Positions 55,745-64,000 of a DNA stretch of 64,000 nucleotides are shown here, one piece after another (position 1 is the stretch's first letter; each line of letters starts with the position of its first letter). The stretch covers positions 9,906,603 through 9,970,602 of the forward strand of contig OZ026840.1 of the NCBI GenBank assembly GCA_964023205.1, written 5' to 3'. A program made the position numbers and the translations under genes. The notes below the pieces were generated by a model. The model made no database searches and had not been told where the DNA came from. It saw only the letters and a program-made list of their open reading frames with translations. The stretch comes from Lutraria lutraria. Taxonomy: Eukaryota; Mollusca; Bivalvia; Venerida; Mactridae.

Positions 55745-56951
55745 AGTCTTGATGGTCTCACCCTGGAATTTTATCAAAAATGTTGGACAGAAATATCATG
55801 CATGCTGATCAAATCTTTTGAACAATCATTTAATAATCAAGAGTTATCAAGAAGTCAAAAACAAAGTATAATCTCACTAATTTACAAAAAAAGAGACCCG
55901 GAAAATCTTGAAAATTGGCGACCATTGTCACTCCTTTATACTGATTACAAGATCCTTGCTGCACGGTTACAAAACACACTACCAAAAATAATATCCACGG
56001 ATCAGCAAGGGTTTATAAAAAGCCGTTTTATCGGCAACAACATCAGACAGATACAATGCATTTTTTATTATGCAGAATCTTTTGATATTGAAGGTGTAGT
56101 CTTATTTATTTCTAGATTCTAAAAAGCATTCGATAAGTTGAATGTGATTTCATATTGAGCACATTATGTAACTTTGCCTTTAATATCAGCTTCATTAATT
56201 GGGTTAAAACTCTCTATAAAAACAATTGCTCATCAGTAATTAATAACGGTTGGATTTCTGACTGTTTTACGTTTCTCGTGGACTGCGACAAGGTTGTACA
56301 GTATCGGCCCTTCTATTTACGATAGTTGCAGAAATTCTCTCGTCTAAAATATGTAATACTACCGAACTAAAAGGAATATCAATTAAATTAAATACTGACC
56401 ATACTAAAACAGTTTAAAATTACATACTGACCATACTAAAACAGTTTAAAATTACATACTGACCATACTAAAACAGTTTAAAATTACATACTGACCATAC
56501 TAAAACAGTTTAAAATTACATACTGACCATACTAAAGCAGTTTAAAATTACATACTGACCATACTAAAACAGTTTAAAATTACATACTGACCATACTAAA
56601 GCAGTTTAAAATTACATACTGACCATACTAAAACAGTTTAAAATTACATACTGACCATACTAAAGCAGTTTAAAATTACATACTGACCATACTAAAACAG
56701 TTTAAAATTACACACTGACCATACTAAAACAGTTTAAAATTACATACTGACCATACTAAAACAGTTTAAAATTACATACTGACCATACTAAAACAGTTTA
56801 AAATTACATACTGACCATACTAAAACAGTTTAAAATTACATACTGACCATACTAAATTACACAACTTGCAGATAATACATCCTTGTTCCTGACAAACGAA
56901 CACGATATTCCAAAAGCAATTAAAATAGTAGACGAAAATATGCGACCTTTC
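55745..56951 (+). pseudogene. L1/Tx1-like LINE RT after the TIR element, with minisatellite
   Basis: LDGLTLEFYQKCWTEISCML, then KKRDPENLENWRPLSLLYTD, STDQQGFIKSRFIGNNIRQI and, after shifts, motif B-like sequence near 56285. The stretch TELKGISIKLNT is followed by a 460-base minisatellite (56391-56850), then KITQLADNTSLFLTNE (motif C, here QLADN for QLADD). Frames shift near 56110 and 56280. Confidence 0.85.
56391..56850. repeat. 32-bp minisatellite, about 14 units
   Basis: Unit CATACTGACCATACTAAAAC plus AGTTTAAAATTA repeats with a strict 32-base period. Units are almost identical; the main variant is AAAAC against AAAGC, which alternates for three cycles in the middle (a 64-base higher-order pattern). 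One unit has CACACTGACC. There are no unique spacers. Confidence 0.95.
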
Positions 56952-58459: not shown

Positions 58460-58984
58460 TGAGAGTAAGTATAATCCCGGTGAAAATGGATATATAGAAT
58501 TAAGTTCGCCGTCGTGTACGTCTTTATTGATGTTCTATTTACTGTCATTGTACCGAAAAGAACGTTCCCCATCCCAACCCAAACTATTGGCAGTTAGTTC
58601 GTCATAGCCACTGGGTTACATGTTCAGTTCATTGGGATAGTTTTCGGCCTCTAATTCTGTTCCTCACTAAATTTGTAAAACTAAAAAGTCGAGATTGATT
58701 GGACCTTGTAAATTTCATATTTGCAAAGCGAATTTATGAGAATAGACGATTATACAGTTATTGTACTTACCTACAATAGAAGTGGTTTTAGTCGTATCTT
58801 CCCCACGGATCCTGGAGTTTCACTCGACAGAGGTCACGATGTAGACAGATAAGACATTCAACAACAGAAAATAGGTAATTCTTCAAATAGCGCAAAGGAA
58901 ACGGAACTGCTTCTTTCCGGATGTTATTCATCTACCTGCGGCTGACCACGATTATCGCTGTCATCACACTTGGACGCTACCACA
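58460..58984 (-). repeat. 3' LTR of the gypsy element
   Basis: On the minus strand the tract GAACGGGGGGGAG (58985-58997) is a polypurine tract, and TGTGGTAGCGTCCAAGTG begins directly after it, a normal LTR start. AATAAAG (58521-58527) would be the poly(A) signal. The far end is set at TGAGAG (58460, i.e. ...CTCTCA) because of the TG/CA rule and the short distance after AATAAA; it cannot be checked against the 5' LTR, so this boundary is tentative. Confidence 0.6.
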
Positions 58985-58997
58985 CTCCCCCCCGTTC
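58985..58997 (-). promoter_or_regulatory. Polypurine tract
   Basis: GAACGGGGGGGAG on the minus strand, immediately before the LTR start, is the expected plus-strand DNA primer. It lies about 65 bases after the TatD ORF stop, which places that ORF inside the element. Confidence 0.72.
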
Positions 58998-59061: not shown

Positions 59062-61116
59062 CTAAACAACATCCGCAAAAAGCCTGTGGCCATTGCGGCG
59101 GGTGACGGCTAAAATTTCCCCCGTGGGCACCCCCCTAATCTCTGCCACTGCTTTCGCTACATCATCCACAAATGCTGGTGTGTTGAAGGTGGCCGACCTA
59201 TCCGTCCTCAGGTACGGCGCGTCTGTCTCAATCAACAGACGGTCTGCAGGGATTCGCTTCACTGCCGCCCTCTGAAACCTGTCGAAGGTCTTGACCAGGC
59301 CGGATATGCTGAAGTAGCAGCTCGGGAACGTGGTCATCCAGGCCAAAGCTTGATCCACCCCGCCAGTAAAGCAGTGTAATTGCATTCGCTGGCGTGGAGA
59401 GACCCACTCCTTCATAATCTGAAGCCCCCTAAAGTAAACCTCACTCTCGTACCCTCCATCCCGACTCTCCCGGAAGTGTAGAACTACAGGCCGGATGGGA
59501 CAAGCCAACTCAAGAAGAGCTTTGAACATGGCTTCTTGTACCTGCCACTGTGCGCGAGGCCTCGTATAATCAAGGCCAATCTCCCCCAAAGCCACCACGC
59601 CTTCCTTTCTCAACTCGTTTCTGACCAAGTTGACTGCAAACTCTGTATCCCCAATAGCATTGCTGGGGTGTATCCATACCGCGGAGCCGAACCCTCTCTC
59701 CTGCGGATACCTCTGTGGGAAGGTCGCTTGGTCACAAAAAACCATGACGCCTCCATCCACGTGCACAGGGACCTTTGGCGTAGCCCCCCGGTGAAACTTG
59801 CACAACTCTTGTACCGACAGGCCCGCTCTATCCAATTTGTTCTGGCTCCTGTCGAGGTGGAAATGGCTGTCGAAAGCCAACAATACCGGGACTTCTACCG
59901 CTGCCCTTGTTGCTTGACCCGTAACACCAGCGCTTCCCGATTCTGATGTCCCTGGTCCCATTCCAATATCGTCAGTCGATTGACTACCCGCACCCCCGGG
60001 ACGGTCTTCCGAGCTGTCATATCCCACTTCATCCACCACTTCCAAGTCCTCCTCGGCCTGGATGTTCACAGCACTCTCTAGCTGGAACCTCTCCCTGTAT
60101 TCCTTCTGACCATAAGGCCGAAGCAAGCTGAGCAGAGCCAACTGTACCCTCCAGTGGAACAGAAGTACTCTGCTAGTCACGCTTGACAAACGCAAATTTC
60201 TTGGGACGTTCCAATGAAATCGTCTCCCCACCCTCTCGATCCAAGGCCTATCCAGATCATGGACCACTGCATTTTCAGGAATCCCCAGTCTCCTACGATG
60301 GACCAGCTCCATCCCATCATTCACCGTATTAGCCCCTACCAATCTCAGCAGAAACAATAAGGCTTGTAGTCTCTCCTCGTCTCGTTGAGGAGCCTCCAAC
60401 AAACTATACCTATGGAAAAGTCTAGGTAGGTGAGCCGACTCTGCATGCCGGTGCAAATTCCTTCGCCTCGCTCTACAAGCTGGCACTGGGCAAATCTGCA
60501 TGCCTCTCCTCCCTACTGGCTGCCACCTCGACCTATCTCTCTCCCTCTGACCCCGGGCTTCCTCCCTGGGTTCCTCACCCCTATCCTCTCTAGGCCTGTG
60601 TAACAAGGGAGACCTCGACCTGTACCGCCCTTCCGCGTCCCCCCTACGTTCCTCAGGTCTGGACCGATCCACTTCACTCACCGGTGAAAATGCTGCTGCC
60701 CTGGCTGCTCGAACACTCGCTTCCACTCTCCTCGCCACCTCTTCTAGTGTCTCTCCAGCATCAAACTCTGGAGGGGCCGAACCCTCACCTTTCTGCTCCT
60801 CCTCCGTCCCAACTTCCATTGGGGTGGGTATCTTTTCCTCATCCGAAATCTCAATTACCTCGGATTCCACAACCTCCTTCTTGACCTCCTCACCCTCAGG
60901 TTCCTCCTTAATCCCAGGCAAAGCCGGGAACTCTGCACGATCCAGCCTAATCGGCCTCTGCCGTCCCACCCTAGCCACTAGAGTTCGAGCCGGACCTCTA
61001 GTTCTCATCCCAGATATGGTCATTCCGGGTCGCCTCTTCTTCACTGGTGCCCTCACAACTCGCGCCATGAAATCGTCTCCACACACCAGCTCACCGAATT
61101 TCCGGATATCTTTCAC
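59062..61116 (-). CDS. Gypsy ORF3: zinc finger plus TatD-like nuclease
   Basis: 684 open codons. The N-terminal 200 residues are charged and disordered: a SUMO-interaction-like VIEISDEE at 87-94, then Arg/Glu/Ser-rich with GRYRSRSPLL. A C2H2-type finger lies at C209, C214, H224 and H229 (CPVPACRARRRNLHRHAESAH). A helical middle follows (245-350). Residues about 412-684 form a TatD domain, a TIM-barrel metal-dependent DNase/exonuclease family. Its ligands are all present: H418 and H420 (FDSHFHLD), E512 (GEIGLDY), H547 (VLHFRE), H581 (LHCFTGG) and D632 (IETDAPYL). The first ATG in frame is residue 17; an upstream segment (61113-61307) in another frame looks like its true start. It could trim cDNA ends or act on host nucleic acid; the role is unknown. 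Such a domain is not a usual gypsy component. Confidence 0.9.
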   Translation of the reverse strand: MKDIRKFGELVCGDDFMARVVRAPVKKRRPGMTISGMRTRGPARTLVARVGRQRPIRLDRAEFPALPGIKEEPEGEEVKKEVVESEVIEISDEEKIPTPMEVGTEEEQKGEGSAPPEFDAGETLEEVARRVEASVRAARAAAFSPVSEVDRSRPEERRGDAEGRYRSRSPLLHRPREDRGEEPREEARGQRERDRSRWQPVGRRGMQICPVPACRARRRNLHRHAESAHLPRLFHRYSLLEAPQRDEERLQALLFLLRLVGANTVNDGMELVHRRRLGIPENAVVHDLDRPWIERVGRRFHWNVPRNLRLSSVTSRVLLFHWRVQLALLSLLRPYGQKEYRERFQLESAVNIQAEEDLEVVDEVGYDSSEDRPGGAGSQSTDDIGMGPGTSESGSAGVTGQATRAAVEVPVLLAFDSHFHLDRSQNKLDRAGLSVQELCKFHRGATPKVPVHVDGGVMVFCDQATFPQRYPQERGFGSAVWIHPSNAIGDTEFAVNLVRNELRKEGVVALGEIGLDYTRPRAQWQVQEAMFKALLELACPIRPVVLHFRESRDGGYESEVYFRGLQIMKEWVSPRQRMQLHCFTGGVDQALAWMTTFPSCYFSISGLVKTFDRFQRAAVKRIPADRLLIETDAPYLRTDRSATFNTPAFVDDVAKAVAEIRGVPTGEILAVTRRNGHRLFADVV

Positions 61117-61307
61117 AAAAGATATCTTGTTCGGCTCCTAGCCAGCCTTAACTGTTCCTCCACTAAAGGCTCTATCCTCTTATGATCGGCCGGCCTCATC
61201 GTTCCCAACTCCACGATCAGGTCCCTTCCGGAAGACCACAGTCGACCACACTTGTTGGCCTCCTCTACTTCCGCATATATGTCCCGGTTATCTACCCTGG
61301 ACGCCAT
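61113..61307 (-). CDS. N-terminal segment of gypsy ORF3 (different frame)
   Basis: ATG at 61307 opens MASRVDNRDIYAEVEEANKC and runs 65 codons (…PLVEEQLRLARSRTRYLL) to a stop inside the start of the TatD frame. The two frames overlap by a few bases near 61113-61130, so a single frameshift, genetic or programmed, would join them into a protein of about 745 residues. The ATG lies one base after a strong splice acceptor (TTTTTATGTATTTCAG at 61309-61324), suggesting a spliced subgenomic mRNA as used for env-like ORFs. Confidence 0.65.
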   Translation of the reverse strand: MASRVDNRDIYAEVEEANKCGRLWSSGRDLIVELGTMRPADHKRIEPLVEEQLRLARSRTRYLL

Positions 61308-61308
61308 C

Positions 61309-61324
61309 CTGAAATACATAAAAA
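61309..61324 (-). promoter_or_regulatory. Splice acceptor before gypsy ORF3
   Basis: TTTTTATGTATTTCAG, a pyrimidine-rich stretch ending in CAG, stands one base before the ORF3 ATG and about 50 bases after the pol stop at 61360. Its donor should lie upstream of gag, outside the window. Prediction from sequence form only. Confidence 0.55.
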
Positions 61325-61359
61325 TGACCTATTAAATCCCATGCATATAACTTACTGTT

Positions 61360-64000
61360 TTATTTGCCTGCCTCACACCTTGGACATAAATATATATCCA
61401 TACTCTCTGAATCTTCCTCAGTTACTCCCACACAATTACCATGAAACCACTCATCGCATTGGTCACATTCTATCATAAAGCTGCCATCATCCTTCCCCCG
61501 GCATATACAATATCTCTCATCCTTCCCAGTCGGACTGGACTCTCCACAATTTAGCCTTGCTCTAATTTGTGTCAGCCAAGCGGGTGTTTGCTCCAACTTG
61601 CACAACTTAATTCGGTCATGATTTACATTCATTTGTTTTGTTCTTAACCTCACTTGAAATAAATACGGGGAAATTTCCTGACAATGATGCCTGGTCCTAT
61701 CCACTGTGGCAATAGCTTCTTAGTGGTACCCTTCTTACCCGCTTTATTCAATACAAAAACATAATCCCCCTGAGCAAATGAGGCCTTTCTTAACCGCAAA
61801 TCATAATCTCGTTTCATATGGGCCTGATAAGACCTCAACTGTTTGCGGGCCATTTCATGGGCTTCAATCATGTCCCTTTCAAGCCTTCCCACATAATCCT
61901 CTGCACATTCAGCTTTGTTGCTACCACCTGGCACTGGATAAACTAGGTCGGCCGGTGTATGAACCTCCCTACCCAACATAAGTCGGTTTGGGGTAAAGCC
62001 TGTACTCCGTGAAACCGAAGACCGCATGGCTGCCGCTACCTGCGGGAGACACACATCCCAGGTATTCTGCTTGTTACCCACAAAGCAACGAACTGCATCC
62101 ATCAACGTGCGATTGTATCGTTCTACCTGACCGTTCGTGCTAGGCCGGTAAGCTGTTGTCCTGGTCTTGTGAATGTGCAACACTTTACACAGTTCTGTAA
62201 ACAACGCACTCTCAAAATTTGCCCCCTGTCCGTCATAATCTCCACAGGCACTCCCAGCCTGCTGAACACATGTGTAACTACTGCTTCCGCTGTGTCCTCG
62301 GCAGTTTGGGATTTTAAAGGGATGCACTCAGCCCACTTAGTGAATTGATCCACTACCATAAGGATGTGACGGTTACCCCGCTCCGTCACTGGCAATGGAC
62401 CTAGGAAGTCAATGTGGACTCTCCATAGGCAGTCCTGAGTGGTAGTTGACCATCTCCCCCTTACTCTTCCTAACTGGGTTCTTACTCACGCTACACCGTG
62501 GACATACCTCCTGATATCACTGGACATTCTATGCCAGAAATATTTTTGCTTGATCCTGGCAATTGTTCTATCCTCACCTTGATGCCCCGCCATTGGTAGA
62601 TCATGGCTCAAGGCCATAATTTCCCTTCTCATACTAGTGGGCACTAATAGCTGCCTCCTGTTGGAGTTAGGATCCCACCTCCAGATTACACCGTCTGACA
62701 TGGAGAAACACTCCCTATTTACCCAATAGTACTTACAGGAGGCGTTCGCCAGAAAAAGACTACCCTCAGGTGGTTCTTTCCTGTGCATCAGCCACTCCCT
62801 TAGGACCCTGAATTCGTCTTCCTTATCCTGCTGAACCAGCCACTCTCCTGTCTCCTCCTGTACTCCCTGTACCTTAGGGCCCTCGGCTCCTTTCTTGGTG
62901 GCAGCTAAAGGGACCACATCATCTACACATTCAATAAACGAACCCCAGCTTTTCTCAGTTCGAGTGCACTTACTACACCCTCCACATGGTAAATCCTGTA
63001 ATTCCACCCCATGTTTAAAATGGTCAAGGTACTCTCCTGGCATTCTCGACAATGCGTCCGCGTTGCCATGCTTCTTGCCAGGCCTATGCCTTATTTCCAT
63101 GTCATATTGGCTAAGCTCCTCTAACCACCTTGCCATCTGACCCTGTGGCTCTTTGAAGTGCAAAAGCCAGATCAAGCTACTATGGTCAGTTCGCAAAGTA
63201 AACCTACGGCCAAGAAGGTAATGCCTGAATTGCCTGGTAAATCGTACCACCGCCAACAACTCCTTTCTTGTGGTGCAATATCTCCTTTGTTCCTTAGTCA
63301 AAGCATAAGAACCATAGCTGATCACTCGAGTGGTACCATTCTGCACCTGGCTCAGGACACCTCCCACTGCCCTATCCGATGCGTCCGTATCCAATATGAA
63401 TGGATCTTCCCGATTGGGTAAACCCAGGATTGGTGCCTCTACCAAGGCCAGCTTTAAATCTTCGAAGGCTGCTGCCTGTGTTTCACACCATTCAAACTCT
63501 TTAACTGCATCATACAGTGGCCTCGCTTTTTCAGCGTACTTCTCGATGAACATCCGATGGTAGTTTACCAACCCCAAAAACCTCTCAATGTCCTTGGCTG
63601 ACTTAGGTTCTGGCCAATTTGCTACCACATCCACATCATTTGGGCTCAGGCCCAATCCGTCTGGCCCTACGGTCCTCCCCAAAAAATCTACTGTGTGCTG
63701 AAACAGCTCACACTTTTTGGGTTTCAGCTTGAGCTGGTACCGCCGGAATCTTCCAAATACTTCACGCAGTGTCTCAAGGTGCTTGACAAAGGTCTCAGCC
63801 ATGGCCATAATGTCATCCAAAAAAGCAAGCACTGAGTTCCAGTTCAAACCATGTAACACTAGGTTAATCGCCCTGGCGAATGTAGCCGGCGCATTGCACA
63901 ACCCGAATGCCATTCTAACAAATTCGAACAGCCCATATTTGGTAGTAAAGGCCGTCTTTTTCCTGTCTTCCTCTTTGATTCTTACTTGCCAATATGCCGA
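61360..64000 (-). pseudogene. Ty3/gypsy pol: RT, RNase H, integrase with C-terminal PHD finger (partial)
   Basis: Enters at the window edge inside RT. FGLCNAPATFARAINLVLHG and the YLDDI-type FLDDI (near 63820) are RT motifs B and C. RNase H follows with Asp in ILDTDASD, Glu in TTRKELLAVV and Asp in LRTDHSSL, ending HGNADALSRMP. Integrase has the HHCC start (HDLPMAGHQG, then CPRC in a shifted frame). Its core has Asp in VVDQFTKWAE, Asp in IMTDRG and Glu in NGQVERYNRTL, then [11 protein letters not shown]. It is closed by a PHD finger [22 protein letters not shown] and CPRC (C4HC3, near 61520-61365). Frameshifts near 62500, 62405, 62220 and 61690 inactivate this copy. PHD fingers read histone tails, so it may guide integration; that is inference. 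Confidence 0.92.

Follow-up and report, generated by a model that had tools for sequence, protein, structure and literature searches.

As commonly described, LTR retroelements consist of gag-pol with at most an env gene or a chromatin-reading domain. The elements that we describe here from the genome of Lutraria lutraria resemble Ty3/gypsy elements (Metaviridae) in the AP-RT-RH-INT order, the LTRs starting with TG, the polypurine tract, the 4-bp target duplications and a tRNA-Ser(CGA) primer site, but they add a PHD finger on the integrase, an HhH domain in gag (families A and B, see below) and a TatD gene downstream of pol. PHD fingers and chromodomains are both chromatin-reader-type domains, and the elements thus share with chromoviruses such a domain at the integrase C-terminus. 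However, theirs is a PHD finger where chromoviruses have a chromodomain, and Pfam scans of the family A and family B pol ORFs gave no chromodomain at E≤0.1. With errantiviruses, the env-bearing gypsy elements, they share a third ORF downstream of pol, whose ATG here follows an acceptor-like site, whereas this ORF3 encodes a TatD-type protein and no envelope protein. Retroviruses and errantiviruses express env by way of a spliced subgenomic mRNA. With regard to TATDN2 and the TatD/YcfH nucleases, ORF3 has the same TatD barrel with six metal ligands, and its nearest solved structures are bacterial TatD enzymes. On the other hand, ORF3 forms a branch of its own and has its own zinc-finger/helical domain; some TATDN2-type proteins carry CCHC knuckles instead according to Pfam annotation.

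Nuclease activities, including 3'-5' exonuclease, are described for TatD and TATDN1/2/3 in the accessible parts of an article (PMC12709183). Among the matches listed in a search of the open-licence literature, which does not include Repbase and gives no proof of absence, we found none that locates TatD within a retrotransposon. In their accessible parts, one article concerns an unrelated TATDN2 retrocopy (PMC5408686), an article on Troyka elements (PMC12440569) has no occurrence of PHD or ORF3, and one on bivalve transposons (PMC10294476) has no occurrence of PHD or nuclease. Our analysis showed that a lineage of Ty3/gypsy elements whose integrase bears a PHD finger carries ORF3 as a third gene after pol in the Lutraria lutraria genome.

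The window, that is, the whole stretch of 64,000 nucleotides that was analysed (C9:9906603-9970602), contains in its last 5.2 kb on the minus strand a reverse transcriptase, RNase H, integrase, PHD finger, ORF3, polypurine tract and LTR. These are the 3' part of a Ty3/gypsy element of 10,025 bp (C9:9965361-9975385). Reverse transcriptase, RNase H and the integrase zinc-binding domain (62486..64000; Pfam RVT_1, RT_RNaseH and Integrase_H2C2) run past the window. The following integrase part (61650..62327) is frame-broken and matches rve_3 only at E=0.0056, below the cut-off of that profile, while the same part is open in a copy on C3 (rve, E=1.5e-11). The PHD finger at the integrase C-terminus lies at 61375..61509 (PF00628, E=2.8e-12). 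At the other end, the polypurine tract GGGGGGGAG (58985..58993, read directly, with equivalents in families B and C) is followed by the 3' LTR of 226 bp, TGTGGTAG...GTACAATA (58759..58984), and by the 3' copy of the target-site duplication, ACTG on the element strand (58755..58758). The earlier note on this DNA had placed the TatD ORF inside the element, as it lies on the same strand between integrase/PHD and the tract with the LTR start, and had proposed to extend the contig and compare both LTRs. The 5' LTR indeed lies just beyond the window (C9:9975160-9975385), 7.4 kb upstream of the noted ORF; it is identical to the 3' LTR at 225/226 sites and directly preceded by the same ACTG (locus L031), so that the LTR pair and the ACTG/ACTG duplication enclose the ORF. 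A tandem array with a 32-bp unit was also seen at 56353-56896, between the element and an RT-like piece recognized by eye (55802-56122).

The ORF itself (59062..61116, minus strand, 684 codons) is present and bears TatD as noted, but ORF calling and genome comparison identified it as only the part of ORF3 downstream of a frame break, since the GTG at 61116 is merely the first start codon after a stop and the homologous ATG lies at 61307. The 5' part from this ATG (61117..61307) is in another frame in the window copy, with the break roughly between 61,110 and 61,160, while in the protein P0001 and in the C3 copy, where ORF3 runs uninterrupted for 755 codons, it belongs to a single open frame. 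Because both ORF3 and the integrase are frame-broken, the window copy is a recent but damaged one.

A search of the genome (728.5 Mb) with the family A LTR, to which the window element belongs, gave 21 matches, which we grouped by eye into 14 loci. Six of them are LTR pairs, every one enclosing an ORF3 match, five are single LTRs adjoining ORF3 or pieces of it, and the remaining three, on C12, C16 and C11:0.56 Mb, have no ORF3 match. No family A element with paired LTRs but without ORF3 was seen in this search, and in none of the six pairs does the 5' LTR leave ORF3 outside the element. The LTRs are nearly or fully identical in the copies on C3 (227/227, TAAC/TAAC), C1 (223/224, ACCT/ACCT) and C11 (223/224). 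Exact 4-bp target duplications were present in three of the four family A pairs checked and in four of all six LTR-paired elements examined from families A, B and C; they were not found at the C11 copy or the family B copy. In a further family A copy (L039, C10:19939001-19961595), the LTRs are 22.6 kb apart and the extra DNA has ORFs of 282 and 143 aa, which, to judge by a resemblance, perhaps derive from a Polinton-like element. That the TatD ORF is a gene carried by the element seems to us nearly certain.

The ORF3 query gave 73 matches in the genome, and we read four element families, in all of which the TatD ORF3 comes after integrase-PHD. The TatD parts of families B, C and D are 34-42% identical to that of family A: family B has 41-42% identity, an ORF3 of 763 codons and LTRs identical at 230/230 sites; family C has 34%, 741 codons and LTRs identical at 258/258 sites with ATCT/ATCT; and family D has 35-36%, 696 codons and integrase-PHD directly upstream. 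One family D locus (L049, C9:23674500-23684400) contains two integrase-PHD-TatD units in direct repeat, 5,560 bp apart, with 99.7% identity across the 4,341 bp that were read. ORF3/TatD lies within 6 kb downstream in 29/32 PHD-bearing integrase loci vs 4/110 loci without PHD coverage. We judged these four loci to be truncated members of the same families, and the three PHD loci without ORF3/TatD are partial or stop-bearing matches (C4:43674542 has eight stops). In an integrase tree of 23 rows, the nine PHD-bearing rows fall on one side of a 100/99 branch. Seen from ORF3, 33 of the 50 merged ORF3/TatD loci are at most 6 kb downstream of a related integrase, so TatD is not, as the earlier note had allowed, only ever a lone host gene; the other 17 lack a related integrase upstream and include three non-autonomous copies and many fragments.

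The 1295-aa ORF of the C3 copy contains protease (36-124), RT (362-521), RH (608-710), INT (864-1035) and PHD (1247-1291). The gag N-terminus of families A and B is an HhH domain (HHH_3, E=3.3e-9 and 3.7e-9; L033:3746-5632 and L045:287-1681), which seems unusual for gag, and the start of gag in family C resembles this stretch by eye. Shortly after the LTR, families A and B have the primer site TGGCGCTGCGAGCA, which by eye complements the 3' end of tRNA-Ser(CGA) plus CCA, with a match over 14 nt; at this position family C has a different sequence, which was not matched to a tRNA.

The noted ORF matches Pfam TatD_DNase (PF01026) over profile positions 1-252 of 253 with its residues 415-680 (59077..59874, E=2.5e-40), and this is its only Pfam match at E≤1. 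All six TatD metal ligands are present in the window (H418, H420, E512, H547, H581 and D632), which bears out the earlier claim that the C-terminal part keeps every ligand. In an alignment of 70 rows (the window and 69 proteins), 69 rows have letters at all six columns, and 67 of these 69 keep H, H, E, H, H and D, the two exceptions changing the Asp. By eye, an ORF3-like copy on C8 (L139, C8:28128400-28130900) is changed at the fourth and sixth ligand positions and is possibly no longer catalytic. In the AlphaFold2 model, the TatD barrel (about residues 410-680) stands apart from a zinc-finger/helical domain (about residues 201-345); pLDDT is mostly >90 in these two and <50 in much of the remaining protein, and the N-terminal part is poorly modelled. 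The barrel model matched 1j6o (E=3.8e-15), TATDN3 (1.6e-13) and TATDN1 (1.7e-12) in Foldseek. The middle domain (residues 201-345, 60082..60516; pLDDT 93.7, pTM 0.88) is predicted as a zinc finger (C209, C214, H224 and H229) with a helical bundle and had no Foldseek match at E≤0.001. Its four zinc-finger residues are at least 90% conserved, and the zinc-finger pattern occurs in 51/56 N-terminal parts of at least 250 residues each. The closest outside relative of the ORF3 N-terminal part, P0001, ends before TatD. We regard it as very probable that the TatD of ORF3 is an active nuclease.

An acceptor-like site lies upstream of the ORF3 ATG, at a distance of 1 nt in family A, 2 nt in B and D and 7 nt in C. 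In the window it is tttttatgtatttcag/g (61308..61330), identical in the C3 copy L002 and similar in the other three families. By our splice score, which is rough and uses assumed site frequencies, this site ranks 1/424, 13/580, 5/277 and 8/281 among the AGs of families A to D (Fisher p=2.9e-5), and an equally good site stands before other ATGs in 0/100, 5/146, 0/71 and 1/76 cases. Donor-like sequences are found at the LTR ends of families A (AGGTAAGTA, a pattern match in the C3 copy that was also read in the window near the end of the 3' LTR, within 58759..58984) and B (AGGGTGAGTA), while a pattern search for GTRAGT found no donor in the LTR and leader of family C. These sites suggest that ORF3 is likely made in the env style from a spliced subgenomic mRNA.

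The family A TatD barrel was shown to be under purifying selection, with a dN/dS of 0.04-0.22 for family A copies against the C3 copy. Since pol of the autonomous family A copies gave 0.13-0.43 (gag, 0.41-0.52), TatD in this family is constrained about equally to pol or more. In families B and C the constraint is weaker or less well measured (B, 0.43-0.47 for two pairs; C, 0.24-0.50 where the pairs are diverged, and 1.53 in a single near-identical pair, on six changes). Three non-autonomous copies (L035, L041 and L043) share with family A, at the DNA level, the LTR, the leader, gag (75-76% identity), a piece around the integrase zinc-binding domain and the stretch before ORF3, and their DNA is without the protease-RT-RNase H stretch and without the C-terminal integrase-PHD stretch; the first ORF of L035 matched gag and integrase zinc-binding profiles and neither protease nor RT. 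They keep ORF3 with 98%, 94% and 85-94% protein identity, respectively, and among themselves TatD has a dN/dS of 0.14-0.22 and the first ORF, measured from L035, 0.56-0.62. Their dS to family A is 0.78-0.87 in gag vs 0.04-0.19 in ORF3, for which reason ORF3 of these copies was probably exchanged by recombination, and this may account for part of its conservation there.

Reverse transcription can leave 3' ends unfinished and give rise to RNA-DNA hybrids and damaged bases, so an action of ORF3 on the element's own intermediates would be the most economical reading. Splicing would yield a subgenomic mRNA for ORF3, in the manner of env in retroviruses and errantiviruses, and the zinc-finger domain would bring the TatD barrel to nucleic acid. 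The barrel would then work as a metal-dependent 3'-5' exonuclease or endonuclease on replication intermediates, with frayed or damaged 3' cDNA ends and residual RNA in RNA-DNA hybrids as substrates, and clear them before or during integration. The whole chain in a loose sense, an element-borne, spliced and active nuclease on own intermediates, seems to us evenly balanced between true and false. The step that the nuclease acts on the element's own intermediates is, taken by itself, a reasonable possibility that falls a little short of this.

The earlier note had put forward the processing of cDNA ends, the removal of competing DNA and action against host sensing as possible functions. Another possibility is thus that ORF3 serves counter-defence or competition, destroying host RNA or DNA signals or the intermediates of other elements and not its own. 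The accessory position downstream of pol and the retention of ORF3 in non-autonomous copies without the protease-RT-RNase H stretch would suit such a factor, as would a SUMO-interaction-like motif that precedes the zinc finger in families A, B and some of their relatives (8/56 N-terminal parts vs 4.0 expected from shuffles). However, the excess of this motif is small and we saw no sign of any target besides the element, and we regard such a role as rather unlikely. It is less likely still that ORF3 is a non-catalytic passenger, a replacement of structural or env-like kind with a TatD fold that binds without cutting. The loss of Asp in two of the 69 scorable rows and the C8 copy (C8:28129736) with two ligand positions changed by eye would fit a passenger, but the intact ligands in all other scorable rows and the low dN/dS of the family A barrel argue against it.

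In a tree of 122 rows, a 99/95 branch separates 75 rows, six of them from this genome, from the TATDN2-type and bacterial rows, so ORF3 does not group with TATDN2. The other 69 rows of the ORF3 branch are known from protein sequences alone; one of them, P0049, is from a sea urchin. The named proteins closest to ORF3 come from Dreissena and Ruditapes, and the best-scoring rows outside the branch are spider proteins with the annotation TATDN2. Family B groups with Ruditapes P0006 and family A with two Dreissena proteins, which indicates that the families are older than the split of these species or moved between them. The donor of the ORF3 TatD was not found in this tree with its TATDN2-type and bacterial rows. 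Separate capture of TatD from the host by every family, to which the differences at more than half of the residues between their TatD parts might point, is very improbable, because own families and relatives stand together on one side of the 99/95 branch away from the TATDN2-type and bacterial rows and the zinc-finger pattern is common to most N-terminal parts. A host gene standing by chance beside a gypsy copy, as one might think from the window alone without a 5' LTR or from the 17 loci without a related integrase, has practically no probability left, being ruled out by the six family A LTR pairs around ORF3 and the target duplications in families A and C, and opposed by the repetition after integrase-PHD in four families and by the host TATDN2-like gene, which is a separate locus, in pieces on C13 and split into exons.

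The ORF3 branch also contains TatD proteins from bacterial symbiont bins (P0013 and P0061 of Thiodiazotropha; P0019 and P0024 of Sedimenticola), the latter two with the ORF3 zinc-finger pattern; these proteins may come from host DNA in the bins.

Finally, our results describe a virus-like jumping-gene lineage with a TatD-type nuclease gene where retroviruses keep the envelope gene. The lineage was shown in one genome, and related proteins from a sea urchin and from further bivalves suggest a wider spread. Tentatively, and with more doubt than for action on own intermediates alone, we propose an old gypsy lineage that would make its own nucleic-acid trimming or repair nuclease from a spliced mRNA for a role in replication or counter-defence that is not known for LTR retroelements, with derivatives without protease and RT keeping ORF3 under strong selection. 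Our results suggest that transposon ORFs may lie behind the bivalve proteins that bear the annotation TATDN2 or TatD hydrolase and behind some TatD proteins of symbiont bins. If true, the presence of a conserved nuclease gene in the position of env would point to an unrecognised step in LTR retroelement replication or host conflict, and the TatD family, of whose roles in animals little is yet known, would gain a setting with strong selection.
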